From: a virus
Direction: 5' to 3' (one strand)
Length of the DNA: 54,787 nucleotides
IMG/VR virus record: IMGVR_UViG_3300037233_000021
Span: 1-54,787 of that record
Shown: positions 18,398 through 54,787 of the stretch, one piece after another
How positions within the stretch are numbered: the first letter of the stretch is position 1
How the letters are laid out: every line of letters begins with the position of its first letter
Notes under the pieces: generated by a model
What the model saw: the letters and a program-made list of their open reading frames with translations, nothing else
What the model was told of the DNA's origin: nothing
The model's database searches: none
Position numbers and translations under genes: made by a program

Positions 18398-19468
18398 TTA
18401 AGTTGATGGGACAATTGAATCGAAATTATAGCGCTGAACCTTATTCCATGTCAAGATGGTTTTGCGGAGCAGGATGATCTCTACAAAGCTTCTCAGGAAC
18501 GCGAACGTGTTCAGGTAAGACAGCCAGTAAAACACCGGAACTTTGCACAGCACATCCCATCGCTTGGTCTTGAGCGCGATCATCACGCCGACGCCCAGGT
18601 AGCACGCCAGATCAACCAAGACGCCCAGCGCTACCCACTTGATGGGGAACGCCCAGCAGAGAAGTGGCAGCGTAAAGAAACGATTGAGCAGCAAGGTGTC
18701 TAGCACGAGGTACATCATGTACCAGTCCACTGGGCGCTTGGGCGCTAGAGAAAACGTCTTGTGCTTGAGGACAATCTGCCAGAAGCCACGGTTCCACCGC
18801 ATGTTCTGCTTCATGAAGTCCTCGAACGTGCTCGGGTCTTGAGTGATGACCCCTGCCCCGTGGATATACTTGATCTTGCCCTGCATGCGATGCACCTGGA
18901 GGGTGAGGTCCATATCTTCAGCGAGCGTGCCCGCATCGATGTTCAGCTTCATCAGCTCTGACAGCCGGTACATCGAGGCACAGCCCGGTGAGACCGTGAT
19001 CATGTTGAAGTTGGCCTGCCCGCCCTTGATGACCTCGTGCGAGAAGGTGTACTCATACGCCCGCAGAGCGCCCCAGATGTGGTTGCTCTTGGCAGACTTC
19101 ACCTGACCGATGAGCAGCGCGGCGTCAGGGTTCTGCTCTGCCGCCTCATACATGACGTTGAGAAACTGCGACTCCACCTGGGAGTCCGCGTCCACGAACA
19201 CCACCCACTGGTAGCGGTCCTGAAGCCTGAAGTGTGCCAGCCCGTAGTTCTGAGCGTGCGCTTTGCATCCGCCCTTCTCGGGCACGGTGTAGACGGTGAC
19301 GCCCTTGGCGCGCGCGAGCGCCGCCGTAGCATCTGACGACATGTCGTCCACAACGTAGATGTCGCTGCGATTGAAGCCTGCAGCACGCAGGGATGCTATC
19401 GTGCCTTCAATGACCCGCTCTTCGTTGAACGCGGGAATAAGCACGCAGATCTTGGGCTCGGGTGTCAT
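18398..19468 (-). CDS. Processive-type family 2 glycosyltransferase, membrane-bound
   Basis: 356 residues. The GT-A fold of GT2 enzymes is clear: ICVLIPAFNEERVIEGTIAS at the nucleotide site, DDMSSDAT, the DAD metal motif (93-95), AEDMD (183-187), and QNMRW (221-225), the Q/RxxRW signature of processive synthases such as PgaC/IcaA, NodC, cellulose and hyaluronan synthases. Three hydrophobic segments follow (about 251-275, 278-300, 310-335), which could form the export channel; the N-terminal spans of PgaC are missing. It probably polymerises a sugar on the inner membrane. No good ribosome site is visible before 19468. Product sugar unknown. Confidence 0.85.
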   Translation of the reverse strand: MTPEPKICVLIPAFNEERVIEGTIASLRAAGFNRSDIYVVDDMSSDATAALARAKGVTVYTVPEKGGCKAHAQNYGLAHFRLQDRYQWVVFVDADSQVESQFLNVMYEAAEQNPDAALLIGQVKSAKSNHIWGALRAYEYTFSHEVIKGGQANFNMITVSPGCASMYRLSELMKLNIDAGTLAEDMDLTLQVHRMQGKIKYIHGAGVITQDPSTFEDFMKQNMRWNRGFWQIVLKHKTFSLAPKRPVDWYMMYLVLDTLLLNRFFTLPLLCWAFPIKWVALGVLVDLACYLGVGVMIALKTKRWDVLCKVPVFYWLSYLNTFAFLRSFVEIILLRKTILTWNKVQRYNFDSIVPST

Positions 19469-19495
19469 GCCAGGAGTGTAGCACAAAAGGTTCGG

Positions 19496-19567
19496 TGCCG
19501 GGTCTCTGAATCGAACAGAGGAATGGCAGTTTACAAAACTGCTGCTGTGCCACTGAGCCAACCCGGC
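19496..19567 (-). tRNA. tRNA-Thr (TGT), first copy
   Basis: Acceptor GCCGGGT/ACCCGGC, anticodon stem GCAGT around loop TTTGTAA (anticodon TGT), T-arm CTCTG-TTCGATT-CAGAG, discriminator A. The 3' CCA is not encoded (CCG follows). Reads ACA. Confidence 0.92.
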
Positions 19568-25042: not shown

Positions 25043-25116
25043 TACCTGTTACCCTTAGCGGCGGCGTTTGCGTTCATCCTAAGTCTACGTGCTTCCTGTG
25101 ACGACATGGCAGACAT
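25042..25116 (-). CDS. Small protein, 24 residues
   Basis: ATG overlaps the portal stop (TAATG at 25114-25118). It ends in TAGTG with the next gene. Basic helix (QEARRLRMNANAAAKGNR). Coupling on both sides supports translation. Confidence 0.45.
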   Translation of the reverse strand: MSAMSSQEARRLRMNANAAAKGNR

Positions 25117-27698
25117 TATATCTGACTACCGGACTGCGCGGGGGAACCACCTAGAGGAGATGGTGGTGGACCCTGGGGAGTCGGCGCGAGCGCCTGACCG
25201 GTCGGGGGAGTGGCGGCAGGAGGATCTGACGGCAGCTGGATGTCATGGGCGTTCCTGATGTGTCCTTCGCGCATCAGCTTAGCGCGGAGGATGGCGTCCT
25301 CACGCTTGATCTTTGCCTTCGCTTCCGTGTTCTTGCGCTTCTCGTCGCCCTGGAACGCGAGCTGCTTCATGGCTTCTCCAGCCTGCGCCGACTTCGTAGC
25401 CTGATCTGTCTTGGCCTGTACAGCCTGCGCGTTGGCTGCATCCTCTTGCTGAGACTGCTGCTGTGGATTCTGCTGACCAGGAGGCGGAGGCTGCGGCGCT
25501 GGCGCGGGCAGCGAGTTGACCTTGATGGCAACCGCCGAAGCGATCATGTTCTGCAGGTCCGGCGAGATGGTCGTGCCGGTAGGATCATGCATGTCGAACG
25601 GCGGCAGCGGTATGCCCATCGTCTTCTCGACCTCTACCTTGTACTGGAACGCTAAATGCTCTGCGACGTGCGCAGCCATGATCATCTGGAACTGCTGCTG
25701 CAGCGGAAGCGGCAGAGCAGGCATGGTCTTCGTCATGAAGTCCTGATGTATCGCGATGTGTGCGGTGTGCAGCTGATCGTAGAACGCGCGCACCGGTGTG
25801 TTCGCCATGATCGCCATGTTCTCGCTGACAGGGTCCAGCTCAGTGTATGCGTCGCTCGACATGTAGGTATCCACGTCATGCACGCGCAGAGCCCGGAGCA
25901 TCTCGCGGTGAGCTTTGCGCTTGGCCTTCTCGGAGTACAGGCTCGGGTCTGACGTGATGAGTCCGAGTACGCTCTGTGCCTGCGCGATCCGCATCGTGCT
26001 CGACCAGATATTAGGATCACTGACAGGGCGTATTTCGTGAGTGATGGTGTTGTTGAAGTCGTCGCCGATCTTGAAGGCGTCGAACTGCTTCGACTTGATC
26101 GGGTACTTCTCGTCAGCCATGTACTCTGAATTCAGCGTGTAGAGGATGCCGAACTCTTCACCCGCACTCGTGTGCAGGCGCTTGTGGATAGCGGAGAACA
26201 CCTTACTGCCCTGCTCAATGATGGCGAGGGTTGTTCCCACCGGGCCAGTGTTCGGCGATTCGCCGGTCATAGCCTCAGTCGTCGATGAGAACGATTGAAT
26301 ACCCTCAACCAATAACTTCAGTGTACTGAACAACGCAGGCGTGGGCTCTTTGAACGGCGGAGTGTAGAAGCCCTTCGCTAGGTCTTCTGCTGATGCGTCA
26401 ACATCAACCCACTCGCCAGCCTTGTATCTAATCTCGCCCGCCTGCGACAGAGACTTAGTGCGGAAGCCTCCCTGAAGAGAGGACGTAAGTGATCCATCCA
26501 ATAGAAGCCGTAAAGCTCCGCCAGCCGCTGCCCCCAGTGAGCCGATGAGATGGAGTAATCCAAAGCCATAGAATCCAAAACCAGGGAGATATTTATAGTG
26601 GACGAACCAGATGCGCTTGCGGCGCTTCGCGTCATCGATCTTCCAGTTGCGGCGGATAGACAGGACTTCTCCTGACTCGCGCTCAAACACAATGATGTAC
26701 GGGTATGCGAATTCATTTTTCTTCTGCCCTGTCTTGTCGTAGAAACCAGTCGGCACCTTCGCCCACGGCGTAATGGTATCCTTCTGATCTATAGGTTGGG
26801 ACTCGTTGACGAAGTTGAAGTCGATATGCATCTCGCAAATTTCATAGGTGCTATCGTCTTCGTGACGCACAGCATTTCGCGTGTCAGAATGATCCAACAG
26901 CATGCGAGGATCGTCAGCGGACTGCGATGCATTGTACGGCTGCCTCCAGATGTTCTTGGGTTCAATGAATTCTCCATCAGCAATCGCTCGCTTCAGGTCG
27001 TTGCCGGTCATGTAGTAGCGGTGCGTGTAGCGGCTCGCGTCCTCAAGACTCATGGCGTCGTAAGGAACTATGAAGTCTTCGACCCGCAGGAAGCGCGCAA
27101 CGGGCATCTCTAGCTGGATGTCGTAGAAGCACTTCTTGAATGCTGACCCAGCGAACGGCAGATAGAACAGCATCTGGTCCACGTTCCAGAAGTACTGCTT
27201 ATCCAGCTTCGTCAGCTGGCGGTTCATGAAGGTCTCGATGCGATCCGCTTGGTCTTCCTGCTCCTCGTCCGAGTCATCTTCTGCGACGACCTTGACCGGA
27301 CCCTGCGGAGGGAATACTTCAGAGATGGACCGCGACTGGAACTGCACCATAGCCTCAGCGAGCGCCGGGTGCGTGACAGTAGAAGCTCCCTCGAACACAG
27401 TCTCGTCTGACGGGATGTCCTGAAGCCCTATGATTTCAAGCCCTTTCTTCAGGCGACGCATGTGATCGCGGCGCGACCCTTCATCCACCACCAAATACTC
27501 TTTCAGCTTGTCGCCGAGCAGGCGGCGATGATTCTCGTCCAGTGCGTCGGCAAGGTTGGCGTCATGCTTGCGCTGCGCCATCGACTCCTTCTTGAAGTCT
27601 GCGTCCTGGTCAGGCTCGCCAACCTCCACGCTGCCATCCTCATTGTGCTGGATGTCAGATGCTTCTTCTGTGGGTTGTTCTTGTGCTTCGAGCGCCAT
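25116..27698 (-). CDS. Portal protein
   Basis: 860 residues. A portal of podovirus type: charged N-terminus, HPALAEAMVQFQSRSISEVF and GPVKVV, an acidic EDDSDEEQEDQ loop, LPFAGSAFKKCFYD, the clip/stem region around GLLHLIGSLGAAAGGALRLL, and RALRVHDVDTYM further on. The Gln/Pro-rich C-terminus (PPPPGQQNPQQQSQQED) is probably an unstructured tail. Starts in a TAATG overlap with the terminase stop. Forms the dodecameric DNA channel. Confidence 0.9.
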   Translation of the reverse strand: MALEAQEQPTEEASDIQHNEDGSVEVGEPDQDADFKKESMAQRKHDANLADALDENHRRLLGDKLKEYLVVDEGSRRDHMRRLKKGLEIIGLQDIPSDETVFEGASTVTHPALAEAMVQFQSRSISEVFPPQGPVKVVAEDDSDEEQEDQADRIETFMNRQLTKLDKQYFWNVDQMLFYLPFAGSAFKKCFYDIQLEMPVARFLRVEDFIVPYDAMSLEDASRYTHRYYMTGNDLKRAIADGEFIEPKNIWRQPYNASQSADDPRMLLDHSDTRNAVRHEDDSTYEICEMHIDFNFVNESQPIDQKDTITPWAKVPTGFYDKTGQKKNEFAYPYIIVFERESGEVLSIRRNWKIDDAKRRKRIWFVHYKYLPGFGFYGFGLLHLIGSLGAAAGGALRLLLDGSLTSSLQGGFRTKSLSQAGEIRYKAGEWVDVDASAEDLAKGFYTPPFKEPTPALFSTLKLLVEGIQSFSSTTEAMTGESPNTGPVGTTLAIIEQGSKVFSAIHKRLHTSAGEEFGILYTLNSEYMADEKYPIKSKQFDAFKIGDDFNNTITHEIRPVSDPNIWSSTMRIAQAQSVLGLITSDPSLYSEKAKRKAHREMLRALRVHDVDTYMSSDAYTELDPVSENMAIMANTPVRAFYDQLHTAHIAIHQDFMTKTMPALPLPLQQQFQMIMAAHVAEHLAFQYKVEVEKTMGIPLPPFDMHDPTGTTISPDLQNMIASAVAIKVNSLPAPAPQPPPPGQQNPQQQSQQEDAANAQAVQAKTDQATKSAQAGEAMKQLAFQGDEKRKNTEAKAKIKREDAILRAKLMREGHIRNAHDIQLPSDPPAATPPTGQALAPTPQGPPPSPLGGSPAQSGSQI

Positions 27699-29317
27699 TA
27701 ACCTGTGCCTATGCCTTTTACTTGACGGGGCCTGAATAGCCTGATTGTTCCCGCTTCTTCCTCAAACTGTACGCCGTCGCGCTTACGAAGCCACATCAAA
27801 CCCATGAGCAAGCAATCGACCCAGTCGTCGTTCTTTCCTTTCGGAAAGTTCGCGCACTCGTCAATGACCGGCTTCGAGAACAGCTCCTGCGGCAGGTAGA
27901 ACAGGCAGCCCTTCTCCAAGGAGAGGCTGGCCGTGTGCGCCCGCGCGATCTTGTCCCCGTCCCCGTCGATCTTCACCGCCAGAACCGGGAGGTTTGCGCG
28001 ACGCAGTTCCTGGATCAACGAGTGGCCGCTGGCCTTCTTCTCGATCAGAATCCAGTCGGGATTTGCCTTATCATTCGAGACCTTAGCGAGCTTTCGTAGA
28101 ACCGGGAACGACACTTTGTCCTTCCAGGCACCCAGCAACATCGCACAATTTCGGGTCGGCTTCTTAATTGGTCTATCGACCATTCTACCATCTGGCAGAC
28201 GTACCTTGGACATTACCTCCGGCGTGTATCGGAAGATGCCGAGCGTCAGGCGAGCGCTGAAGTCATTCTCCTCCCCCTCCTCGAACGCCGTATCGTACAG
28301 CTGGATCTTCTCAAAGAACTCAGGCAGCTCGGCCTGAGCACCTGGGTTCGGAGCCCATGGCGGGTTGACCCACGCCTGCCAGTAATTGCGCTTGAGGATG
28401 TAGCCACCCTCCTTGGTCGGGTCTTGCTGGAACTGGGCGGAGTAGTCGGCCTCAGTCATGCCTTCCATGTACTCATCGGTGGCTTCTTGAGTCAGCCGGT
28501 GCGGGCTCAGCAGCTCGCCGTCATTCTTACGCGGGTCCATGTAGATCAGTCTGCCCTGGCTGCCGTCCTTCGTGGGGAGTCTGGTAGTGCAGCGCGTCAG
28601 CCGCTTGAACTGGTTCGGTAAACACAGGTGAACGTACTTCTTGCCTTCTGTGTCCAGCAGGTGACCAGTCAGATCCAGGGAGTGCGAGCGCTGTGCGATC
28701 AGCACCCGGCGTGTCTGAGATGGATTGTTGACGCGCGTGCGCAGCGGGCCGGTGTACCAACGGATTGCCTTCTCTCGGGTGACGTCGCTGTTGATGTCCT
28801 GAAGGTTGTGCGGATCGTCAACGATATGGTAGTCGCCGCCGAACCCAGTCAAGCGTCCAGCGACCGACACGGCCATGCGCTGACCACCGGCGTTGTTGAC
28901 GAACAGGTTCTTCTCGTTCTGGTCTAGCTTCAGGATGATGTCTGAGCCGAAGCGGGCACGATACCAGGGGCTCTGAATCAGATCTCGCATGCGCAGAGCG
29001 TCGCGAGTCGCGAGCCCTATTTCGTAGGAGCCGGTGAGGAACTTGATCTTTGGATTGTTGGCCCAGATCCAGCTCGGCCAGAGCACGGACACCAGCGTTG
29101 ACTTGAGGAAGCGCGGCGGGATGGATACGATGAGATTCTTGATGTCGCCCAGGTACGTGTAGACCAGATGGTCACACAGGGCATCGAGATATGGCTCCCA
29201 CTGCAGCTCTTCGTTCTCGATGACGTGCCATGCGTCTTTGGAGAACCTGCGGAGGTTCCTGCGGCACAGCTCCGCGCCCATCTCGGTGAACGTGATCTCC
29301 GGGGTCTTGAAGTCCAC
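27698..29317 (-). CDS. Terminase large subunit
   Basis: 539 residues. Walker A-like SIPPRFLKST (65-74), Walker B YHIVDDP (163-169) and an RNase H-like nuclease domain with LYDTAFEEGEENDFSA and later IDGDGDKIAR. The variant PPRFLKST P-loop is typical of the terminase group using PPR-KS. It packages DNA into the prohead with the portal and small subunit (33818-34618). Confidence 0.92.
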   Translation of the reverse strand: MDFKTPEITFTEMGAELCRRNLRRFSKDAWHVIENEELQWEPYLDALCDHLVYTYLGDIKNLIVSIPPRFLKSTLVSVLWPSWIWANNPKIKFLTGSYEIGLATRDALRMRDLIQSPWYRARFGSDIILKLDQNEKNLFVNNAGGQRMAVSVAGRLTGFGGDYHIVDDPHNLQDINSDVTREKAIRWYTGPLRTRVNNPSQTRRVLIAQRSHSLDLTGHLLDTEGKKYVHLCLPNQFKRLTRCTTRLPTKDGSQGRLIYMDPRKNDGELLSPHRLTQEATDEYMEGMTEADYSAQFQQDPTKEGGYILKRNYWQAWVNPPWAPNPGAQAELPEFFEKIQLYDTAFEEGEENDFSARLTLGIFRYTPEVMSKVRLPDGRMVDRPIKKPTRNCAMLLGAWKDKVSFPVLRKLAKVSNDKANPDWILIEKKASGHSLIQELRRANLPVLAVKIDGDGDKIARAHTASLSLEKGCLFYLPQELFSKPVIDECANFPKGKNDDWVDCLLMGLMWLRKRDGVQFEEEAGTIRLFRPRQVKGIGTG

Positions 29318-30415: not shown

Positions 30416-30994
30416 TTAAACCTTTGAGGGTTCGACTGAGCCTATCGCTTGTTCTGTTGGGCTATCCGGCGCGGGTGTCGCTTTCCGTATGCGCGCCGTC
30501 TTGCGTTGTGCTGAAGCCGTTGTGTTTCGCTTTGCATTGAGTTTCATCGTATGAATGGGCGGTGCGCTGTACGGGTCAATCAGACATGATACCTCAACTG
30601 CCTTGGCTGCACCAGCCCCCATATACATCGCGCCCATCGCCGCCTTCGCGCCGGACCCTATAGCGTAGAACTCGTTGAGAACCTTCTCCCCCCTGCACCA
30701 TTTGTCCCACTCATAGAGTCCGTCAGCCTGCAACACCAGAACGGAAAAGTCAGCATCGCCGTGGATCAGATTATCTGGCGGGTCTTTACCGGAGCCAAGC
30801 CAATCAACGAAGACTAGCCCGCTGAACGTCTCTCCTGCAGTAGCCAAGATTACTTCTTGCTGAACCCCGTTGACCAGGATGGACTTCCGAAACAGCTTCT
30901 CGCAGATGAACACTCGCGCACCACCGGCATCGGTGTGTGTTGTGGTGCGGCTGTCCGCAGCTAGGATACCTGCCCGGTACGCAATAGTTGTCAT
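30416..30994 (-). CDS. HslV/proteasome-like Ntn hydrolase
   Basis: 192 residues. After loss of Met the chain starts with Thr: TTIAYRAGILAADSRTT, with Asp at about 13 and Lys at about 32 (CEKLFRK), in the positions of the T1/D17/K33 set of HslV and proteasome β subunits. ATAGETFSG, FYAIGSGAKAAMGAMYMGA and AVEVSCLIDPYSAPPI also follow the Ntn order of phage T1-type peptidases. Probably a homo-oligomeric peptidase of 20-24 subunits; the ATPase partner is not visible. Polar C-terminal tail of 45 residues. Role in capsid maturation or host takeover is inferred. Confidence 0.8.
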   Translation of the reverse strand: MTTIAYRAGILAADSRTTTHTDAGGARVFICEKLFRKSILVNGVQQEVILATAGETFSGLVFVDWLGSGKDPPDNLIHGDADFSVLVLQADGLYEWDKWCRGEKVLNEFYAIGSGAKAAMGAMYMGAGAAKAVEVSCLIDPYSAPPIHTMKLNAKRNTTASAQRKTARIRKATPAPDSPTEQAIGSVEPSKV

Positions 30995-31530
30995 GCGCGC
31001 AGCTCGTTGTAGCGCTGCAGGAAGATGTCCACAATCTGGTTCTCGTTCATCACTGGGAAGATTTGCGGGATGTAGATGTCGCGGTCGAACGGAATGAACC
31101 GCGTGATGTTCGGGTGCATGAGGTCGCGCGCCTCTGCGATCAACGCAAGGTGATCAGCTTCCTTGACATACTCCCACTCTGAGGCGGTGCAGGTCACACC
31201 GTGCGAGCGCCAGATGACCTGACGAATCTTGTCGCCAGCCTCGATGACTGCCGGTGCCAAATGCTTGGCCGGTGTCGGGATGTCACCGAACACGGCTTCC
31301 TCGATGTCGTGCATCAGTGCCGGGAGAGCGAGCCTGTACGGTACATTGAGACTGACCCACACGCTGTGCTCAGCGACTGAGTACGTGACCCCCTTCTTCG
31401 TGTGACCGGCGAACCGATTCACTCGCGCCAGTGACAGCGCAAGCTCCTCGATCCCAACCTCGTCTGCCGTATCGAACGAGTTGAGGTCTACCGTGACCCC
31501 GTTGCTGAACGTCATGAACTTAGGTGTCAT
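30991..31530 (-). CDS. HD-domain phosphohydrolase (YfbR/DatZ-like)
   Basis: 179 residues. RVNRFAGHTKKGVTYSVAEH (H55), ALMHDIEEAVFGDIPTP (HD at 74-75) and EAD (126) match the H...HD...D metal site of YfbR-like 5'-nucleotidases and phage dNTPases. Start ATG with AGGAAGAG upstream; ATGA-coupled to the Ntn hydrolase. It probably hydrolyses dNMP or dNTP. DatZ of 2-aminoadenine phages belongs to this fold, but no PurZ is seen here. Confidence 0.8.
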   Translation of the reverse strand: MTPKFMTFSNGVTVDLNSFDTADEVGIEELALSLARVNRFAGHTKKGVTYSVAEHSVWVSLNVPYRLALPALMHDIEEAVFGDIPTPAKHLAPAVIEAGDKIRQVIWRSHGVTCTASEWEYVKEADHLALIAEARDLMHPNITRFIPFDRDIYIPQIFPVMNENQIVDIFLQRYNELRA

Positions 31531-31577
31531 TGCACTCTTCCTGGTGTAGGGGAAAGGATTCGCTCTGCGATATTCAT
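31527..31577 (-). CDS. Possible coupling peptide, 16 residues
   Basis: A short frame (NIAERILSPTPGRVQ) between the DUF5664 gene and the HD gene, with an ATGA overlap downstream. Real expression not established. Confidence 0.3.
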   Translation of the reverse strand: MNIAERILSPTPGRVQ

Positions 31578-31590
31578 CTCACCCTGCGCC

Positions 31591-32055
31591 TCACACTGGT
31601 AGCAAGGCGTAGCCTTTATTGAGTTCGCCGAGGGAATGCCGAACGTCGGCGATAGACTGCAGGAACGCCTCTTCAGGAGACAAGGCTGAATCAAGCTCCG
31701 CCTCAATCTCCCGGCGCACCGCGTCCTCGCGTAACTCAGAGATGATCTCTTCGCGCTCCTCTTGCTCGATGTCGAGCTGGAGCTGCGCCGACAGCCGCCA
31801 GATGGCTTTGGCAAGGTGCCACTGACCGTCAGTGTCCTTCTTAATGCCCATGCCATAATCGAACTGGTGACGCCACGCGGTGTTCATCTGGTCGGTAGAT
31901 TTCTCGCGCGCCCAGTGCAGCTGCTCTCCGGGGTTGTGCTGGTTGTTGCCAACCACCGCGACATTACACACCGCCAGCCACGCCTTGACGAAGTAGCCGA
32001 ACATGAACGTGTAGAGCGGGATGGCCTTACGATCTTTGTCTGTGGTCGGAAGCAT
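31591..32055 (-). CDS. dATP/dGTP diphosphohydrolase-like protein (DUF5664)
   Basis: 154 residues. The start at 32055 is in a TAATG overlap with the upstream gene. The N-terminal domain KDRKAIPLYTFMFGYFVKAW, then VGNNQHNPGEQLHWAREKST and WRHQFDYG match the DUF5664 family, described as dATP/dGTP diphosphohydrolases. The C-terminal half is a charged coiled helix. Sits beside the HD phosphohydrolase, suggesting a nucleotide-pool module. Confidence 0.75.
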   Translation of the reverse strand: MLPTTDKDRKAIPLYTFMFGYFVKAWLAVCNVAVVGNNQHNPGEQLHWAREKSTDQMNTAWRHQFDYGMGIKKDTDGQWHLAKAIWRLSAQLQLDIEQEEREEIISELREDAVRREIEAELDSALSPEEAFLQSIADVRHSLGELNKGYALLPV

Positions 32056-32879
32056 TACTCTTGCTCTATATTGAAGTGCTCGTACATCTTGTGCTTGCCG
32101 GTGAACTGTCCGACGATGCGACCCTTGGTGATCCACACGTTATGGATCTGCTCGAAGTCAGGCTTGTCACCGAGTTCAAACTTATGCACGTTTCCTGTGC
32201 AGAAGTCACCCATGAAAGTAGCCTCGTCGTGTCCAAAGATCACGCTGAACAAGTCAGGAGGAGAGAAGAACTCAACGTCATGCTTTGTAAGGCATGGGTG
32301 CGTGTGGTAGTTGGCAACGAAGTCGACACCACGCGGAACCGTGTGCGGCATGGACGTGTTGTCTCCAGCATACTCGGTGGACGGAGGAAAATAAACATAC
32401 TTGCCGCTTGGAAGCCTGCCAATCGCTCCGCCCCACTCGTACACGTCGCCGTACTCAGTGTCAATATTCTTGAGCGCTGCGATTGCAGCCTCGTCTGCCG
32501 TATCGAACGGAATGACCTTAGCCTCTTGAGGAATCGACATCACGTCCATCTTGACGAGCGAAGGAGCGACAGCGACCGGCTGCGCGATGCCGCCGTATAC
32601 CGTGGCGTCTCCGAAGCACAGGCTCATACCGATGTGCGCGTGTTCGCCAATTTGCTGACTGGCAGTTGCCGCCAATGCAATCGTGGCCTCTGTGCAGGAG
32701 TCCTTATCAGGAAAGCCGTTGACAAACCATTTCACAACTTCGCCGTTCGAGTCATCGAACGCAGCGGTGAGTAGCATCACGCGCGTATGTAGCGGGTCGG
32801 CCTTATCTTCTGCGTGAGCACCTGCTGAAAGCGCGATGCCAAGAGCTAAGGCTACAAGGTACGTGATCCAATTTTTCAT
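32055..32879 (-). CDS. Exported DUF4329/JAB-like protein
   Basis: 274 residues. GGAG lies nine bases before the start. A Sec signal peptide (WITYLVALALGIALSAGAHA) gives periplasmic export. Residues about 125-240 carry DTADEAAIAALKNI, YGDVYEWGGAIG, GKYVYFPPS, and YHTHPCLTKHDVEFFSPPD, the H-x-H...S-x-x-D zinc pattern of JAMM-type metalloproteases, in the order of DUF4329 domains known from polymorphic toxin and cell-wall proteins. The first 120 residues have a CTEA/CFGD cysteine pair. Sits, oddly, in the nucleotide-pool cluster. Substrate unknown. Confidence 0.75.
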   Translation of the reverse strand: MKNWITYLVALALGIALSAGAHAEDKADPLHTRVMLLTAAFDDSNGEVVKWFVNGFPDKDSCTEATIALAATASQQIGEHAHIGMSLCFGDATVYGGIAQPVAVAPSLVKMDVMSIPQEAKVIPFDTADEAAIAALKNIDTEYGDVYEWGGAIGRLPSGKYVYFPPSTEYAGDNTSMPHTVPRGVDFVANYHTHPCLTKHDVEFFSPPDLFSVIFGHDEATFMGDFCTGNVHKFELGDKPDFEQIHNVWITKGRIVGQFTGKHKMYEHFNIEQE

Positions 32880-32909: not shown

Positions 32910-33821
32910 TCAGGTCTTGCGGCGCTTGGAGGTTAAATGTCCGTACCGGCGCTTCAAGTAACTCAGAGAGACCGTCATCAGGTCAAAATAGCCCTCGTGC
33001 ACCTCGTGGAACACCAGGATGCCGCGCCAGTGCGTGTTGCCCTGTGGGCTCAGGTACTTCTCGAAATGAGGGTACGCGCTGCCCGCGATGATGCCCCACT
33101 GCAGGACCCCACCGAGCGGCATACAGGCGATGTCCAGCCCCTGCTGGTGCCCGCTCACCGCGCTGCGGCCCTCGCGGATCAGCTGCGCGCGAGCATTCGG
33201 TGCGCCGCGCTTGGTCTGCCCGACCGTGCCGGACGCCGACCGTGGGAAGTAGTGACAGTACGCGACCCCGTCGATCACCACCGGCTGTAGGAACGGGTAG
33301 ACCTCGAAACCGAACTGCTCGTAGTTCAGATCCTTGATGGAGAGTGCGCCCTCCAGCTTGGCGTCGGACTCGACAGCTCGATCTATGCGGTCCTCGTGAT
33401 TGCCGAGCGTCAGCACTTTACGGGTTGACTGCGGCACGTACTGCATCAGGCGCTCCATAGCGAGATTGGAGGTCGCGATATCAGCCATGTACCTCTTGCC
33501 TTCGTGTGCCTTTTTGCCAACGTCGTAGGAGCTGAGAGAGTTCATGTCCGCGAAGTCCCCGATTTGCACCAGGACGTCTGGCTTTCTGTCCGCGATATAG
33601 TGACTAACCCAGGTCAAAAAGTCGGTAGAGACCCCTGGGCGGATCTGACAGTCAGGCACCATGATGTGGCTGACAGTGGTTTTTTTGGCACCAGACTCGG
33701 TCTTGACCTGACGGATAAGTCTACGAGCACTCCCTCCGTCTATCCCCAGCGCGCGACCGATCTCCTCGCCGGACTTCCCTTTGGCTACCAGCTTCTCTAT
33801 CCTGTCGCGTCGCTTGGTCAT
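32910..33821 (-). CDS. Calcineurin-like metallophosphoesterase with N-terminal HTH
   Basis: 303 residues. A helix-turn-helix head (KLVAKGKSGEEIGRALGIDG, then GGSARRLIRQVK) precedes a calcineurin-like fold: PDCQI (57-59), GDFAD (88-92), LTLGNHEDRIDR, CHYFPR, SGHQQGLDIACMP. The first motif has Q in place of the usual H. Such phage phosphoesterases may act on nucleic acids or cyclic nucleotides. ATGA-coupled to the small terminase gene. Confidence 0.85.
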   Translation of the reverse strand: MTKRRDRIEKLVAKGKSGEEIGRALGIDGGSARRLIRQVKTESGAKKTTVSHIMVPDCQIRPGVSTDFLTWVSHYIADRKPDVLVQIGDFADMNSLSSYDVGKKAHEGKRYMADIATSNLAMERLMQYVPQSTRKVLTLGNHEDRIDRAVESDAKLEGALSIKDLNYEQFGFEVYPFLQPVVIDGVAYCHYFPRSASGTVGQTKRGAPNARAQLIREGRSAVSGHQQGLDIACMPLGGVLQWGIIAGSAYPHFEKYLSPQGNTHWRGILVFHEVHEGYFDLMTVSLSYLKRRYGHLTSKRRKT

Positions 33822-34618
33822 TCTGTTTCCTTGTCTGTAGAGGGTTGCCTGGGAGCGGGAGCTTGGGCTGCCGGAGACCCTGCAGGAATAATCTCCGACC
33901 TTATGCCCGTAGCTCCCGCCACCAGGACTTCAGAGTGTACAGGAATCGCGTTCGCATCGCGAGCTTTAGATACAAGATCTGCAGCTTTTCGCATCATCGA
34001 TTCGAGTAACATTAAATCAGCAGTCGGGAGCTTAGATAGCATAGCATGCCCGACCGAGTCTCCGACCTTAGATCCAGCGGGCAGCAGCGGCGTGTTGGCG
34101 AACATACCGATGGTCTTCCCAAGCATCTGTTTCGCCTTGAGCTTGTCGATCAGCTTGACCTCGCCAAGCACTGCGATCATCGGGCACGTCTCGTTAGGCT
34201 TACTGGGGTCTGGCTTCCAGTCCCAGTCCGGTATATAGTTCAGCTCGAACTCCTGGATCGCGGATGCTTCCTCGTCGGTAATCTCTGACATCTTCTTCGG
34301 CCTGCTTGCGCCGGTCTCAGGGTCTGAGACGATGAAATTCTTGAACGTGATATCAGTCATCACGGCGATGGATGTCTGGATGGACGACACACTCACGAGA
34401 GCGCTGCGCCTGATCGACGCCTCAAGCTGAGCGATGTACTCCAGGCACAGGGAGCGTACCCTGCGCGCGCTACCAGTGTGTTCTCCGGCCAGTGAGTACC
34501 CACCTGCTTCCAGCGCCTTGCGTGGCGAGCGGGACTTCACCCACTCCACCGCGAACGCGCGCTGCTGCTCGTTCAGGTCTTCAAGGCCGGTGCCTCGACT
34601 GCGGATCATGGACACCAT
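33818..34618 (-). CDS. Terminase small subunit-like protein
   Basis: 266 residues. Start at 34618 with GGAG five bases upstream; an ATGA-coupled ATG at 34609 is an alternative. The head NEQQRAFAVEWVKSRSPRKA, followed by AGGYS and ARRVRSL, is the helix-turn-helix of DNA-binding terminase small subunits. A helical middle and a Pro/Ala C-terminus follow. It is separated from the large subunit by the nucleotide cluster, an unusual arrangement. Confidence 0.7.
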   Translation of the reverse strand: MVSMIRSRGTGLEDLNEQQRAFAVEWVKSRSPRKALEAGGYSLAGEHTGSARRVRSLCLEYIAQLEASIRRSALVSVSSIQTSIAVMTDITFKNFIVSDPETGASRPKKMSEITDEEASAIQEFELNYIPDWDWKPDPSKPNETCPMIAVLGEVKLIDKLKAKQMLGKTIGMFANTPLLPAGSKVGDSVGHAMLSKLPTADLMLLESMMRKAADLVSKARDANAIPVHSEVLVAGATGIRSEIIPAGSPAAQAPAPRQPSTDKETE

Positions 34619-35019
34619 AGCCACTCCCCGTCCTGCATGTAGCGCTGGAAGCTGTCGACGCCCTCTGCCAGTCCGCTGCAAACGTCTGCCCAGTATCCGT
34701 AGGTTCTCATGTTCATCGTGAACGCCAGCTGGTCAGGACTAACCCGTCCGCCTTTCAAGCGCTTCATCTCAAAAAAAGCTCCGTGGTATCCGTGCATGGG
34801 CCACGCGAAAAACAAGTCAGACGCGCCGGGGAGCAGCCCCTGCTTCTTCAAAAAGTTTGAGTACATGGCGCGGTGCTTCGCGTCGCCTGGAAGTTGAGTG
34901 CCGTTCGGAATCAGCATAATCCTATTTCCGAATCCCAGAGCACGGATGTGCTCTACGAGCGCAGCCTGAGCATCCGCCTCGACATCCGGGGTGATCTTTG
35001 GCATATACAGGAAGCGCAT
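34606..35019 (-). CDS. VRR-NUC nuclease
   Basis: 137 residues. IPNGTQLPGDAKHR, LKKQGLLPGASDLFFAWP, YHGAFFEMKRLKGGRVSPDQ and YGYWADVCSGLAEG follow the VRR-NUC order (G--D, E-K, S--Q, conserved Gly/Tyr). These PD-(D/E)XK nucleases cut structured or mismatched DNA and often sit near phage packaging or replication genes. Start may be 35019 or the ATG at 35004; no strong ribosome site at either. Confidence 0.85.
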   Translation of the reverse strand: MRFLYMPKITPDVEADAQAALVEHIRALGFGNRIMLIPNGTQLPGDAKHRAMYSNFLKKQGLLPGASDLFFAWPMHGYHGAFFEMKRLKGGRVSPDQLAFTMNMRTYGYWADVCSGLAEGVDSFQRYMQDGEWLWCP

Positions 35020-36703: not shown

Positions 36704-37382
36704 AGGTCTCTCCGGTCCACTCCCTGAATTGGGCGTGGAGTGTAGTAAATTTCTGAATAGCCAGTGTGTTTCGTGGGTCGTCCAGCTCCGAGCGGCTGTC
36801 TACCCCAATGTGAGACTTGAGCCATGTGGTGGCTGTGGTCTCGTTCCACCCGCCTTCCTGAATCGTCTCGCGCAACCATTCCCAAAACTGGGGGTTCTTG
36901 CCGAGGATAGCTGCGGTGCCGCTCAGCTTCTTGTCGGCCTTGCGGCCCGCAGTCATGTCCCGCTCTACCTTCTCTCGGCGCTCCTGGTTGATAACGGTAT
37001 TGTCATGATCCAGCTCAACTGCCGCTACCATGTAGCGAGTCCCAGCACGATCAGATGTCCGTCGCAAACACCCCGCAAACGCTACTGGCTCCTCAGGGAA
37101 CTCAAACGACACAACCCACCCGCGAGTCGAGTCTCCCCAAGCAGCAAGCATGACATCTCCCTCATATGGCTTTCCGAAAGCCACCGGGTGAGCTGACACA
37201 ACGAACATTGTGCCTGCTCTGTCGCCGGATCTTTTGGTGTACTGTTTAAAAGGATTTGCCTTCTCTGCGCTACCGGGAAGTTGGATTAAGCGAAACCTAA
37301 CTCGCCAGCCATTTCGGTCGCCCCATGATGCGCCGTCAAATTCAACCTCCCCGCTCCACGCGACAATCCTAGAGTTTTCCAT
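36690..37382 (-). CDS. Protein of 230 residues with internal duplication
   Basis: Start at 37382, with GGAGG seven bases upstream. Two units align: WGDRNGWRVRFRL...SGDRAGTMFVVSA (about 20-64) and WGDSTRGWVVSFEF...TSDRAGTRYMVAA (82-121). Each begins WGD--GW-V-F and ends DRAGT--MVA. The C-terminus has FWEWLRE, then ATTWLKSHIGVDSRSELDD and a LHAQFREWTG helix of a type seen at the ends of other phage proteins. No catalytic motif is recognised. Confidence 0.6.
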   Translation of the reverse strand: MENSRIVAWSGEVEFDGASWGDRNGWRVRFRLIQLPGSAEKANPFKQYTKRSGDRAGTMFVVSAHPVAFGKPYEGDVMLAAWGDSTRGWVVSFEFPEEPVAFAGCLRRTSDRAGTRYMVAAVELDHDNTVINQERREKVERDMTAGRKADKKLSGTAAILGKNPQFWEWLRETIQEGGWNETTATTWLKSHIGVDSRSELDDPRNTLAIQKFTTLHAQFREWTGETYERP

Positions 37383-37824
37383 GAAGAGCCTCCACCACAA
37401 CCTTAAGAGTGTCGTCGCCCCACGTACCGAGCGCCGCATTAACGCACCACACCACCACCCTGGTGTTTTCAGGAGTGTATCCAAGCTCTGCAATTTTTCT
37501 ATCCAGACTTGGAGTATACGGAGAGCGCCCGCCGCGTGCATGAAGATCAAAAGCCAAACCGGATAACTCACAGTGTCCGGCTAAAATCTTTCGCAACACC
37601 CACTCAACATTAATAGTCACGAGGTCATGCCTGCGACCGCAATACTTAATCAGGCTGACGGCGCGGCCTCGGGCTGTTTCCCGCCATTTCCTCATAGAGG
37701 CTTTATTTGCATCAGGAAAGCTCACCCTTGACTGTTTGGCTGCGGCATTCAGGCACGCAGCACACCACGACCTGTGGCGGTTTACCCCTTTCTGTCCGCC
37801 ACACTTAGTGCATGCGCTTCTCAT
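37369..37824 (-). CDS. HNH-family endonuclease with N-terminal zinc finger
   Basis: 151 residues. SACTKCGGQKGVNRH and WCAACLNAAAKQ give a zinc knuckle, and HCELSGLAFDLHARGGRSPY, TPSLDRKIAELGYTPENTR and VVWCVNAALGTWG give an HNH-like core of the 'SLDRI-GY--EN-R' type. Inserted next to the primase gene (ATGA overlap). Likely homing enzyme. Confidence 0.75.
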   Translation of the reverse strand: MRSACTKCGGQKGVNRHRSWCAACLNAAAKQSRVSFPDANKASMRKWRETARGRAVSLIKYCGRRHDLVTINVEWVLRKILAGHCELSGLAFDLHARGGRSPYTPSLDRKIAELGYTPENTRVVVWCVNAALGTWGDDTLKVVVEALHGKL

Positions 37825-49303: not shown

Positions 49304-49644
49304 AAATGTGTATCCTCTAGTCGTTTGCGAACTGCGTCTTTTTCGGTGCTCAGAGCTACCCTCACATCCTTAGCCTCAGTCCTGGCGTCGTCCTTCGATG
49401 CAAGCATGAGTGTCATGATCTCACGGTGACTGGCGTGCATCTGCTCGCCAACCACTTCGATTTTATCATACAGCCTGGACACGTCAGACCGAGTGGCCTG
49501 CGTGGTTTCAAGCGCAGTCAAGCGTGTGATGGTTGCGAGATGGTTCTCCTTGTCAGCCTGAATGTGCCCACGGCCCAGCCATGCCACAACCGTTACCGCG
49601 ACCATCCAGCCCTTAGTTGTCAAACTGTTGAAATCGAAATCCAT
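49300..49644 (-). CDS. Membrane protein with coiled coil, 114 residues
   Basis: ATG at 49644 is seven bases from GAGG. Span (KGWMVAVTVVAWLGRG) then a long charged coiled coil (VVGEQMHASHREIMTLMLAS, ALSTEKDAVRKRLEDTHL). Twin of the next gene in layout. Unknown. Confidence 0.55.
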   Translation of the reverse strand: MDFDFNSLTTKGWMVAVTVVAWLGRGHIQADKENHLATITRLTALETTQATRSDVSRLYDKIEVVGEQMHASHREIMTLMLASKDDARTEAKDVRVALSTEKDAVRKRLEDTHL

Positions 49645-52600
49645 CACGCTACCTCTTCAATTGCGGCCCGAACGGATGCGGGCATTCGTTTACTAAGCTG
49701 AGCGAACAGGCTCGCGGTGTGCGGCATGTCGTTGGCGCGCAGGATTGCCGCCTTGTCGTTCATCGTTGTGGCCTTACTGAGTTCGAGCATGACTTTCTTG
49801 TTTTCGATACCACCAGGGCGGTACTCGTAGGTTTCGTGCGCGGACTCGTTGATGCCTTTCTGTAGTTCGTCCACAGATTCTTTCTTCTCTGCGGCAGACA
49901 TGTCTGGATCAGCCATGATCTGGCGCTGCATCTTCTGAGACGCGTGAATCTGCTTCGCTACTGGTCCCATTGATTGCTCTGCAACCCATTCCGATGGGTC
50001 AGCATCCTGCATGGCCTGCGCTCGCTGCTGAGCCTCTTCGTCGTGCTGTGCCTCAAGCTCACGTATGGTGGCCTCAATCGGCGCGGCTGCCTTCATCACG
50101 CGGTTCAGTTCCTGCAGTGATCGCGTCGTGTGCGGCTCACCTTCCTGTCCAGGTATCAAGCTCCCGATGACAGGGAGCTGCCTCCAAATGCTGTCAGTTG
50201 ACTTTGGTGCCATATGTGCGGCACGCATCATTATGTCTGTAGTCTGCAGCACGTAGTTTCCGAGCATACCGCTGTACGCACGCACCAGGAAGTCCAGCTG
50301 CTTCGGGCTCTGCATCCATCCGCCGAACGGCATGTGGCGAGCGATAGCGGTGATAGTCGGGCTCGTGCGAGGGCCTACCTGTTCACTTGGTGCCAGCTCT
50401 TGGTCGAACGATGTGAGGATTGGGTTTCCGTTGTTGGTCCAGTCGCTGTTGCCGTACACTTCAGCCAACGGCTTCACCAGCTGCGGAGTAGGGTTCAGGT
50501 TGAGCCCGTTCATCACAGAATGAAACATAAAGAGCGCCTGCTCTTTTGCGATGGTTCCTTTGTTGCTCGATAAGGCTGCTGTCGCTATAGCTTCAGGGAA
50601 TGTACCAAATATCTGGCCGCTCTCGAATTGCTTCGGCACATGGAACCTGTGGTCTCCGATGTACACGTTGAACGATGTCTCGCGCTGCAGATCCGGCAGC
50701 TCTTGGTACGCCGGGTTGTTGAGGTTATGGAACAGCGCAGCGGAAGCAAGGAACGCAATCGCGCCACCCTTGATCAGGGTAGCTGCATACGCAGCATCGA
50801 GCGAGTGCAGGACAGTTCGCGCAACAATCTTCTTGCCGATAGTCGGCGCGTAGGCTCCAGAGTTGCTGACCATCGAGCGCCCTGTCTTGTACATGCCCTG
50901 TGAGTGCGCGCCCCAGAACGGCACGGTCTCAACTATCGCGTGCACGAGCGGTGAGGCTCCGCGCATAGCGTAGTCCATGATGTCGCGCGCCTCGAAGGCC
51001 GCGAGCTTGTGGCTGGCCGTAGTCTTGAGGGTCTTCTCGTAGACGGTGACGCGGCTGGCGTTCTCCGAACTCGATGTGAGGTTCAGGTAGTTCTGCCACT
51101 GCCGACCGACCCACGAGGACTTGGTCAGGTACTTCTTGCGCCCAACATTCAGGTCGGACGGGTCATTGCGTCCCTGGTTGAAAGATGCGCCAGCGGCAGA
51201 CATCCTGCGGAACGAATCGCTTGCTGTCACAGCCTTGATGGTTCCAGTGATCGCGCTGACGATAGGGGTCACCGGCATGATGCCGCGCGAGACGACCCAG
51301 GCGTTGATGTTGTCCTTGTACAGGGTGCGCAGCCAGAATACCGGCGTGTGCACGATAGCTGCGGTGAGCCCACGCTTCGCTCCACCGAAGAGCCCCATAG
51401 CTGTCTTGAGCCCACGGACCTGCGAGAGGGACGCCAGCGGGCTATTCTTGAGCGCGGCGAACGATTGGGCCAGCATTGGGTCGAACAGCTTATGGATCTC
51501 TTTCTTGCCGTTGCGCCAGATTGTGATCGTGTCATCTCCTCTGGAAGCCTGATGCATGCTGAGCAGCTGCCGGACGCCAGCCATCGAGGATGCGCCAACA
51601 GGCTCTACGCCCATCTTCTCAAGAGCAGCGTTGATACCTTCGGGCGACATGACAGCGTCCACGATGTCGGGCTGACGAATCGCGAGACCGTGCGGAGTGA
51701 TATTGTCGATGGCGACTCGCGCCGCGTGCGCCTTGGTAGCCGCGCTGATGAGCGCCTTCCAGTTCTGCACCATATTGCCGGTGATGTCCCTGACGTTCTG
51801 GGTGCCACCCTTCAGGCGCGTGATCGGGTTCTTGACGCTGCCGAGCGCGCCGGATGCGAACGGGCCGACATTGGTATCTTCTGCCACCCTGTACAGGGGC
51901 GTGTAGTTCTCGGACTCCCACATCGGGCGAGTCTCACCGTCGATGATTCCAGCAGCCTGAGCGAAGTCCAGGACATTCTTGTTGAGCTTGGCGACGTCCT
52001 TCTGCATCTGCACGAAGTGCGGATACCTCACAGCCATCGACAGCGCGTCCGCGATGTCTTCCTGCGTCAGAGAGTTCTCACGGCCTTCCTTCATCAGGTC
52101 GTTCGAGCGCAGCCCGTACTGATACCACTCGAAGTTGCGCAGCATCTGCGGATCGTTACCGAGCGGCGCGTGGATCTGGTTGAGGGGTTTCACGCTCGTA
52201 TCGATATCTGGAGCCATCGACTTGTCAGGGTCGAAGCCAGCGGTGGCCGTCCACTTGATTCCGCCCCACTCCATCAGGGTACGGATCTGCGGCATGACGT
52301 TGGTAGACAGGCGCGCGGAGATGTAGCCGCTCTCTGCCGGTGGAACCTTGCCGTCCTCTTCGTACTGCTTGATGCGGTACAGCTGGTCGGCGCTGTCGAT
52401 CAGCCATTTGGAGCGCACATCGTTCATGGTGCGCGTCATGCGGGTTTTGTAGCCTTCGGTGTTCGGTCCTTTTGGCTGCTCACCCATCTTGGCGTTCTGG
52501 CGCTTGATGGACTCGGCATCTGGCGGCACCACGGCGAACTTCACGCTCGCGGCTTCCTTGGCGTCACGAGCCTCAGATACGCGATGCGCCCAGCTTCCGT

Positions 52601-54787
52601 TCTTCACGTAGTCGTGCGCGCGGCGCAGGGCGGTCAGCGCGTCGTCGCGGTCCAGCGTGATCGGTAAGCCTTTGGATGCGGCCCACACCTTGACCCTGGA
52701 GATGACGCTGCCGACAGCTCCTCGCAAGCCTGTTGGGGTCGCAGCGCCACGCAACTCTGAGCCAGCGCCGTGAGCCAGCCACTCTTCAGCGGCGGCGCGT
52801 AGAGCTTCCATGCGCGTCACCGGGTCCATTGCGCCCTGAAGGTTAATTCCTTCGCGGGCAGCCATGCGCAAAATTGACGGCATCAAGGAGCCGTTGCGCA
52901 GGAAGCCGTCCATGAGGTTGCCGACGTCAGCGCCGAACGTGCGAGCGATACCGTCGTGACCGACGTTCTCCTGCACCAGGGTGTCCAGCGCTTCCTCGAC
53001 GCTCGTCATGTTGTTCTGAATCATGTAGATGTGGGTGCCGTCCGGCTCGCGCACATAGGCTGCCATGATCTTGTCTGTGAGACCTCGAAGCCCTGCCTCA
53101 GCCTGAACAGCGTGCGGTGTGTCCTCTATGGACTTCGCAAGGTGATGTTGTGCGGTAGGGAACATGGCCTGCGCATGCTTTAGTACCTCAGCGGACTTTT
53201 CGTCAGATAGTCCTTTACCGGCGTTTGTGGCAAACGGAGTTACCGCAAACTTTGTTGTGTCTAATGGCTCTCGGCGCATGAGCATGCTGTCGCGCGTGGA
53301 GCCGTCATCGACTTCTTTGAACCCCAGGCTCTCGTACCAGCGAACCAGCGGCTCGAAGCGGATGCCGTTGCGATCCATCGGGACTGCATTCAACTCAAGG
53401 GCAACACCGTGCTTGTCAGCCAGGCCGACGATGTCGGCCATTGCTTTTGTCCCGGCTCCTTCGCCAGGGTATATGGAGCGCACGCTTGACACGTACATGG
53501 TTCCACCATCGTAGGGATCAGAGACGACCCCGACCATGACGTTACCGTTGACCAATCTCTCCCCGATAGATCCTGGTATCTCGGGATACTTGGATTCAAG
53601 CTCCGCACGCATTGCGGAGGATGGTGCCTTACCGTCCTTTGCTCGCGGGGTGTTTCGGAACGGGTTTCTACTGATAGGGGCAACCACAAAGTGACTGGCC
53701 CCTGGTGGTAGCTCGGTGTTATCGACGTAGTCATGTGCATCCTCGTTTGAGCCGAATGTTAGCTCGCTGTGTGGACCTTCTACCTCGTCGCCTGCCTTGG
53801 TGTGAGCCACGACGTTGTAGTCGTAGTCCTCGCCTGGGCGCGAGGCGAACTTGACGGTCGATCCGCCAGACATCCGGTTCTCCAGGGCCGCTTTAATGTC
53901 CGCATCAGATATTGGCTGCCAGCTGTCTAGGTTTATCCCAGAAGTAGGCTCTCGCCCCTGGGACTTAGCGAGTGTTCCTTCGGCGTCCTCTAGGAGCTGC
54001 AGTACGCCCTGCAGGTCCGGTAGTTTGTCAGATGGCGTCAGACCGTCCATGTCAGTGAAGTCGCCGGTCAGAACGCGGTACACCGCGTCAGAGATATTCG
54101 TGTTGTACTCACGCGCGAAGTCCTGGTCTGGGATCGACACGCCGTTCTTTTCCAGGACCGCGCGCTGCATGCGGAACGCGACGTCCTCCCACTCCACGGC
54201 GCGCTGAGCTTCTGCCAGCGTGAGCGGACGTTGGTTGACCATCTTCTGCTTGCCAGCGCCACCGCGCTCGACCTGCATGGTCTGCCCGAGCCGACCGTAG
54301 CGGAAGCTGTCTCCGTACTTCGCCTGCATGAAGTGCTCTGTCAGTGCGTGTCCCAGCTCGTGACTGGTTCTCCACGCGCGCGTGTAGTCAGCGTCATGGA
54401 ACGAAGCCGCGCCGACGCGCGGATCGTAGAGCCACAGCTTGCCGCCCGTGTAGCCGTTCTTGCCGAGCTTCGGTAGGCGGAACTCGACGCCCTTACTTGG
54501 GTCGCTCGTGAAGCTGAACAGCTCTACCTCAAACCCCAATCGTTTCGCGAAGTCCGCGATCTGCGCGGGATTCTCCACAAGGCTCTTGAGGTCATACAGT
54601 TTCCCAGCTGGCCGGAGATCCGTTCCCAGCTTGCCGAATCTGCCGCGCACATCCTTCTGCAAGCCGCCCTTGTCGCCGGTTAACCGATCCAGGGATATTG
54701 GTGGTCCGAGTTTCCCATCTGAATCGGCAGACCCCTCAACGCTTCCCCGTTTGCCATGTTCGGTGCCAAGGCGCTCGGCGTACTTGG
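49644..54787 (-). CDS. Giant polyvalent protein with zincin and GNAT domains, 5' part outside the window
   Basis: At least 1714 residues visible; the frame stays open to the window edge, and the TTG at 54662 is only the first possible start inside it. Counting from 54662: HELGH at 101-105 within WRTSHELGHALTEHF (HExxH zinc protease), a GNAT acetyltransferase-like region about 375-460 (SIYPGEGAGTKAM, LVRWYESLGFKE), then about 1200 residues of mixed helical protein, with short membrane-prone segments near the C-terminal third. This matches phage polyvalent proteins that carry several effector domains, or an ejected virion protein. ATGA-like overlap with the next gene at 49644. Confidence 0.75.
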   Translation of the reverse strand, partial: KYAERLGTEHGKRGSVEGSADSDGKLGPPISLDRLTGDKGGLQKDVRGRFGKLGTDLRPAGKLYDLKSLVENPAQIADFAKRLGFEVELFSFTSDPSKGVEFRLPKLGKNGYTGGKLWLYDPRVGAASFHDADYTRAWRTSHELGHALTEHFMQAKYGDSFRYGRLGQTMQVERGGAGKQKMVNQRPLTLAEAQRAVEWEDVAFRMQRAVLEKNGVSIPDQDFAREYNTNISDAVYRVLTGDFTDMDGLTPSDKLPDLQGVLQLLEDAEGTLAKSQGREPTSGINLDSWQPISDADIKAALENRMSGGSTVKFASRPGEDYDYNVVAHTKAGDEVEGPHSELTFGSNEDAHDYVDNTELPPGASHFVVAPISRNPFRNTPRAKDGKAPSSAMRAELESKYPEIPGSIGERLVNGNVMVGVVSDPYDGGTMYVSSVRSIYPGEGAGTKAMADIVGLADKHGVALELNAVPMDRNGIRFEPLVRWYESLGFKEVDDGSTRDSMLMRREPLDTTKFAVTPFATNAGKGLSDEKSAEVLKHAQAMFPTAQHHLAKSIEDTPHAVQAEAGLRGLTDKIMAAYVREPDGTHIYMIQNNMTSVEEALDTLVQENVGHDGIARTFGADVGNLMDGFLRNGSLMPSILRMAAREGINLQGAMDPVTRMEALRAAAEEWLAHGAGSELRGAATPTGLRGAVGSVISRVKVWAASKGLPITLDRDDALTALRRAHDYVKNGSWAHRVSEARDAKEAASVKFAVVPPDAESIKRQNAKMGEQPKGPNTEGYKTRMTRTMNDVRSKWLIDSADQLYRIKQYEEDGKVPPAESGYISARLSTNVMPQIRTLMEWGGIKWTATAGFDPDKSMAPDIDTSVKPLNQIHAPLGNDPQMLRNFEWYQYGLRSNDLMKEGRENSLTQEDIADALSMAVRYPHFVQMQKDVAKLNKNVLDFAQAAGIIDGETRPMWESENYTPLYRVAEDTNVGPFASGALGSVKNPITRLKGGTQNVRDITGNMVQNWKALISAATKAHAARVAIDNITPHGLAIRQPDIVDAVMSPEGINAALEKMGVEPVGASSMAGVRQLLSMHQASRGDDTITIWRNGKKEIHKLFDPMLAQSFAALKNSPLASLSQVRGLKTAMGLFGGAKRGLTAAIVHTPVFWLRTLYKDNINAWVVSRGIMPVTPIVSAITGTIKAVTASDSFRRMSAAGASFNQGRNDPSDLNVGRKKYLTKSSWVGRQWQNYLNLTSSSENASRVTVYEKTLKTTASHKLAAFEARDIMDYAMRGASPLVHAIVETVPFWGAHSQGMYKTGRSMVSNSGAYAPTIGKKIVARTVLHSLDAAYAATLIKGGAIAFLASAALFHNLNNPAYQELPDLQRETSFNVYIGDHRFHVPKQFESGQIFGTFPEAIATAALSSNKGTIAKEQALFMFHSVMNGLNLNPTPQLVKPLAEVYGNSDWTNNGNPILTSFDQELAPSEQVGPRTSPTITAIARHMPFGGWMQSPKQLDFLVRAYSGMLGNYVLQTTDIMMRAAHMAPKSTDSIWRQLPVIGSLIPGQEGEPHTTRSLQELNRVMKAAAPIEATIRELEAQHDEEAQQRAQAMQDADPSEWVAEQSMGPVAKQIHASQKMQRQIMADPDMSAAEKKESVDELQKGINESAHETYEYRPGGIENKKVMLELSKATTMNDKAAILRANDMPHTASLFAQLSKRMPASVRAAIEEVA

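Follow-up and report, generated by a model that had tools for sequence, protein, structure and literature searches.

Is a phage gene pair encoding an HD-domain phosphohydrolase and a DUF5664 protein the mark of a genome that carries 2-aminoadenine (Z), or can it serve a phage with ordinary DNA? The question is raised by a single virus contig of 54,787 bases (IMG/VR record IMGVR_UViG_3300037233_000021), here called the window, which is the whole stretch of DNA that was analyzed. Here, we describe it as a new example of a recurrent pair of predicted nucleotide hydrolases in phages without PurZ.

A preliminary description, made from the sequence, had reported neighboring HD phosphohydrolase and DUF5664 genes at positions 30991-32055, and both families were confirmed on the minus strand (PF12917 and PF18909, respectively). 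The genes for the 154-amino-acid DUF5664 protein (31591-32055; PF18909, E 2.4e-8) and the 179-amino-acid HD protein (30991-31530; assigned by PF12917, tree, and residues to the YfdR/Atu1052 branch) belong to one coupled row of minus-strand genes between the two terminase genes. The row is bounded upstream by the terminase small subunit (33818-34681; PHROG 51, E 1.4e-7) and holds a metallophosphoesterase (32910-33821; PHROG 221, E 2.5e-48), a DUF4329 protein (32055-32879; PF14220, E 5.1e-9) that adjoins the DUF5664 gene upstream, the pair itself, and, downstream of the HD gene, an HslV-family (Ntn-hydrolase-like) peptidase (30416-30994; PHROG 1040, E 2.2e-30). Small open reading frames separate the latter from the downstream boundary, the terminase large subunit (27698-29317; PHROG 38, E 1.3e-67), and the minus-strand portal gene follows (25116-27698). 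As read from the DNA, the pair overlaps its neighbors on both sides: the DUF4329 stop codon shares TAATG with the DUF5664 start, and the HD stop codon shares ATGA with the start of the HslV-like gene. The HD reading frame starts with ATG, with AGGAAGAG immediately 5' of it; the DUF5664 gene starts with ATG at 32055, and an alternative GTG at 32136 would give a longer protein. Against three relatives (60-100% nucleotide identity), dN/dS was 0.15-0.24 for the HD gene and 0.23-0.29 for the DUF5664 gene, and both are under purifying selection. Row position, start-stop overlaps, and dN/dS together carry the two-gene observation. The order DUF5664-HD-HslV...TerL is retained in four related contigs, including a distant one (L030, the same contig as L009) whose TerL is 40% identical to that of the window.

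Among the other members of the row, the HslV-family peptidase begins MTTIAYRAGILAADSR, which fits an N-terminal-threonine hydrolase after Met removal, and HslV-like genes also lie near DUF5664 in L030, L034, L040, L041, L045, L056, L058, L066, L068, and L087. The DUF4329 protein has a hydrophobic N-terminal stretch. A reading of the row as a defense system was rejected (0/5 row proteins matched PADLOC).

The DUF5664 protein scored 34.3 bits against PF18909 (curated cutoff, 27), a family whose current Pfam name is "dATP/dGTP diphosphohydrolase, N-terminal" and which was matched by 70/70 aligned relatives. Its AlphaFold2 model (pLDDT 93.8; pTM 0.72) is nearly all helical and matched nine predicted viral proteins at E ≤0.001, two of them named dATP/dGTP diphosphohydrolase N-terminal domain; among solved structures, Foldseek returned none at E ≤0.001 and VIA-align reached a Z of 4.1 at most. 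TcdB/TccC chains from a profile search of solved structures (E 0.06-0.08) were taken as chance matches. The assayed relative is the free-standing DUF5664 protein of Arthrobacter phage Wayne (DUF5664-1), which, according to PMC12884076, slowly converts dATP, dGTP, and dUTP to dNMPs and prefers dATP over dGTP. The window protein shares with it PF18909, the free-standing state, and an R-H...D...G..H pattern; R62, H63, D74, G77, and H80 are invariant or nearly so in the protein's own 70-row family and have counterparts in the Wayne-type alignment. The subgroups are far apart (hhalign probability 70, E 4e-5, 68 columns), so the substrate may differ, and purZ is directly adjacent in Wayne whereas the window has none. 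By analogy, the DUF5664 protein would be a dNTP pyrophosphohydrolase (dNTP to dNMP plus PPi), a predicted activity like that of S-2L MazZ (DUF550, PF04447), although the two belong to different Pfam families: S-2L MazZ contains PF04447 only, and in the Acinetobacter Z phage SH-Ab 15497 a PF18909 domain is fused to DUF550.

The HD protein matched the YfbR-like family PF12917 above the cutoff (E 1.3e-7). Its best PHROG was 318, "deoxyribonucleoside 5' monophosphate phosphatase" (E 3.6e-42), and PHROG 7076, "dATP triphosphohydrolase," was far weaker (E 3.8e-6). With the dATP triphosphohydrolase DatZ of S-2L and phiVC8 it has in common the HD fold and the metal- and phosphate-binding residues, whose roles are taken from PMC8065100: the metal ligands H55, H74, D75, and D126 map to DatZ H34, H66, D67, and D119, and E78, R39, K89, and K123 map to DatZ E70, R19, K81, and K116, with the metal site (H55, H74, D75, D126, and E78) intact. 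The specificity residues differ. DatZ Ile22, which keeps out the 2-amino group, is replaced by Gly42, and Gln29 by Tyr50; position 22 is Ile, Leu, or Met and position 29 is Gln in six DatZ-type proteins, while viral YfdR-type rows have Gly at 22 in 88/89 and Tyr at 29 in 89/89, and YfdR of E. coli prophage CPS-53 carries the same G and Y. In the tree, a branch supported at 100/98 separated the window protein and 89 others, including YfdR, from YfbR and the six DatZ-type proteins, with the six DatZ-type proteins as one group at 99/93; branches to YfbR and S-2L DatZ are long, and the bootstrap was not fully settled. On a YfdR-type model that excluded its own lineage, the protein scored 129 bits, versus 25.6 bits on a DatZ-only model. 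Its best solved relative by sequence was Agrobacterium Atu1052 (2gz4, E 1.4e-30; DatZ, E 0.13), which was also the best fold match (E 2.1e-8; TM 0.82-0.85), followed by YfbR and DatZ at about 1e-2 (DatZ, 0.015). Residues 22 and 29, tree, model scores, and best structure thus assign the protein to the YfdR/Atu1052 branch, outside the DatZ clade, and the comparison with DatZ drawn in the preliminary description does not hold at the level of sequence. T5 Dmp, considered as the model behind the PHROG name, was rejected and left out of the tree because it matched neither HD model (-0.5 and -1.5 bits). According to PMC4776307, YfbR, an HD relative in PF12917, acts on dNMPs, and YfdR binds nucleotides much less well than YfbR. 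A further PF12917 enzyme, Dtm of roseophage DSS3_VP1, is a dTMP phosphatase that had earlier been proposed as a dTTPase (PMC12697855), a history that cautions against naming substrates. By analogy with these relatives, the HD protein is a predicted 5'-deoxynucleotidase (dNMP to deoxynucleoside plus Pi).

We infer the activities, serial action, timing, and purpose of the pair as follows, and give about a 50% probability to the resulting reading, namely that an ordinary-DNA phage carries a two-step dNTP-degrading pair, DUF5664 then HD. The DUF5664 protein would cleave dNTPs (probably dATP, dGTP, and dUTP) to dNMPs and pyrophosphate, and the YfdR-type HD protein would then strip off the 5' phosphate, giving deoxynucleosides that would require kinases to re-enter the pool. 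The position between the terminase genes suggests late expression of the row; produced along with the packaging genes, both enzymes would serve to shrink or alter the dNTP pool, not to provide a modified base. Candidate purposes are pool control, removal of dUTP, arrest of replication at the packaging stage, or interference with a competitor. A narrower version, which we regard as improbable, is that such a cassette stands on its own in ordinary-DNA phages and, expressed together with the packaging genes, depletes purine dNTPs late in infection, stopping replication or starving a competing phage, and that Z phages recruited similar parts to replace a base. The earlier suggestion that both enzymes can remove purine dNTPs is borne out insofar as the tested members of both families hydrolyze deoxynucleotides and the Wayne protein prefers dATP among purines; it fails for the HD protein as a DatZ. 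Depletion of dATP, likewise proposed, could still occur by way of the DUF5664 protein; the sequence of the HD protein, by contrast, gives no reason to expect that it removes dATP selectively.

The recurrence of the pair bears on whether the two genes are functionally linked. When viral contigs were searched with the DUF5664 alignment, 504 relatives were obtained, and among the best 80 a YfdR-type HD gene was present in the flanks of 16 loci. It lay ≤1.5 kb from DUF5664 in 15/16 (about 21% is expected under uniform placement) and on the same strand in 16/16, with the HD gene preceding DUF5664 in 12 and following it in 4. From the HD side (best 80 of at least 543 relatives; L003 was dropped because it was already in the DUF5664 set, and L102 is the same contig as L024), DUF5664 of either the window or the Wayne type was found in 11/79 loci, within 1.5 kb in 8/11. 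DUF5664 stands directly before a YfdR-type HD gene, with about 20-30 bases between the domains, in L115, L155, L164, L167, L172, and L173; in L115 and L155 it was matched by the Wayne-type model only, and the pairing therefore extends beyond the DUF5664 type of the window. These loci are not independent, as L003, L024, and L035 are closely related to the window and L036/L037, L164/L167, and L172/L173 are apparently near-duplicate pairs. The HD gene was absent from the examined flanks, several of them short, of 64/80 DUF5664 loci, and also from 7/7 DUF5664 loci of bacterial genome contigs and 34/34 loci anchored on Wayne-type DUF5664. With so many loci lacking the HD gene, pairing is optional. 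We conclude that the association is real but optional and that a general tendency of accessory genes to cluster may explain part of it.

That last point leads to the view of the two genes as unrelated accessory cargo between terS and terL, with general house-cleaning or other functions, and neighbors only through the clustering of accessory genes. In its favor, the metallophosphoesterase and HslV-like genes also recur near DUF5664 in related contigs, and the HD gene is missing from most DUF5664 loci. Against it stand the short distance and shared strand of the pair in both gene orders, and the proximity to HD of another DUF5664 type, recovered in the HD-anchored set. We consider this account somewhat unlikely.

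Among the alternatives, the one with the most published substance is that the HD protein acts like YfdR as a DnaA-binding inhibitor of the initiation of host replication, with nucleotidase activity secondary and the DUF5664 protein acting separately. YfdR is in the same branch and is the nearest named relative (33% identity over 171 columns); according to PMC4776307, it binds DnaA, and its gene cluster inhibits initiation upon overexpression. The window protein, unlike YfdR, adjoins DUF5664 between terminase genes, and the identity of the two is only that 33%. Against this explanation, the HD active-site residues are retained in 88-89/89 viral YfdR-type rows, the exception being the K116 equivalent (K in 66), which indicates catalysis. 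It is held to be unlikely, and the serial dNTP-degrading pair retains our preference.

A Z genome, in which the HD protein would destroy dATP and the DUF5664 protein would make dGMP for PurZ as a DatZ/MazZ-like pair, was the context that the preliminary description had raised with reservations. Both families do occur in Z systems, and the DUF5664-DUF550 fusion of SH-Ab 15497 sits between purZ and datZ. The whole 54.8-kb record nevertheless gave no match to PurA/PurZ (PF00709), a model that matched 7/7 known Z phages (S-2L, phiVC8, SH-Ab 15497, PMBT28, ZP6, BUCT555, and Wayne) among 10 control phage records. DUF550/MazZ (PF04447), matched by S-2L MazZ and the SH-Ab fusion, had no match in the record either, the window DUF5664 protein included; the search for PurZ and MazZ that had been proposed earlier thus found neither in the record. 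Family A DNA polymerase (PF00476) was also without a match there, in agreement with the previous remark that PurZ and a DNA polymerase were missing; the replication gene in the record is a Toprim primase/helicase, and MazG (PF03819) and dUTPase (PF00692) were not matched in the record. Because the record may be incomplete, a fragment, the absence of PurZ from it is not proof. In all seven Z phages, purZ is a few genes at most from nucleotide hydrolases. A second PurZ model, built from four Z phages and used on the flanks of loci, found PurZ in 0/80 window-type DUF5664 loci (within 10 kb) and 0/80 HD-anchored loci versus 14/34 loci anchored on Wayne-type DUF5664, where it was always directly adjacent. 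Across the 27 pair-holding loci, the PurZ scan covered 17 whole records, none of which matched PF00709, and flanking DNA for the other 10. In addition, the HD protein does not belong to the DatZ clade and carries Gly at the site where the Ile of DatZ excludes the 2-amino group. A Z genome is therefore very unlikely for this phage, which most likely has ordinary DNA.

Removal of dTMP by the HD protein for a deoxyuridine genome, as performed in DSS3_VP1 by an HD enzyme of the same Pfam family (PF12917; PMC12697855), is hardly credible here, since the dCMP/dCTP deaminase family (PF00383) was not found in the record and, in the initial 50 kb of DSS3_VP1, the sole HD-like open reading frame found, presumably the assayed protein, groups with the DatZ/YfbR-type model and not, as the window protein does, with the YfdR type.

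For the two-step pair in ordinary-DNA phages, the wider distribution of the families is informative. At least 905 of 50,697 phage records contained DUF5664 (one query), compared with 200 phage records with PurZ-like sequence (S-2L PurZ query), so most DUF5664 genes must serve another role. Our literature searches, in which PMC12884076 was the only paper naming DUF5664, yielded no description of a DUF5664-HD pair in phages without PurZ, and the recurrent pair offers a testable hypothesis for the role of DUF5664 outside Z phages. Phage genes annotated "dATP/dGTP diphosphohydrolase" and "HD/YfbR-like" do not by themselves imply a 2-aminoadenine genome, although annotation merges these.

Elsewhere in the record, a giant gene with an LPD38 domain (49644-54787, minus strand) exits the right end in frame with an open reading frame at the left end (1-196), whose ATG (196) overlaps a stop at 189; the joined frame has 1,779 residues. 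The record may accordingly represent a complete, circularly permuted genome, although the homologue of the giant gene in L187 matches only past the join (residue 91). The record behind L187 (G018, 70.5 kb) is the nearest giant-gene relative, and the giant proteins of the two share 51% identity. Neither PurZ nor, in a search run without a control genome, an HD match was found in G018, which carries its own PF18909 gene at 37195-37491. A glycosyltransferase gene in the window (18398-19561, minus strand) resembles GtrB-like O-antigen conversion proteins (PHROG 841, E 1e-8).
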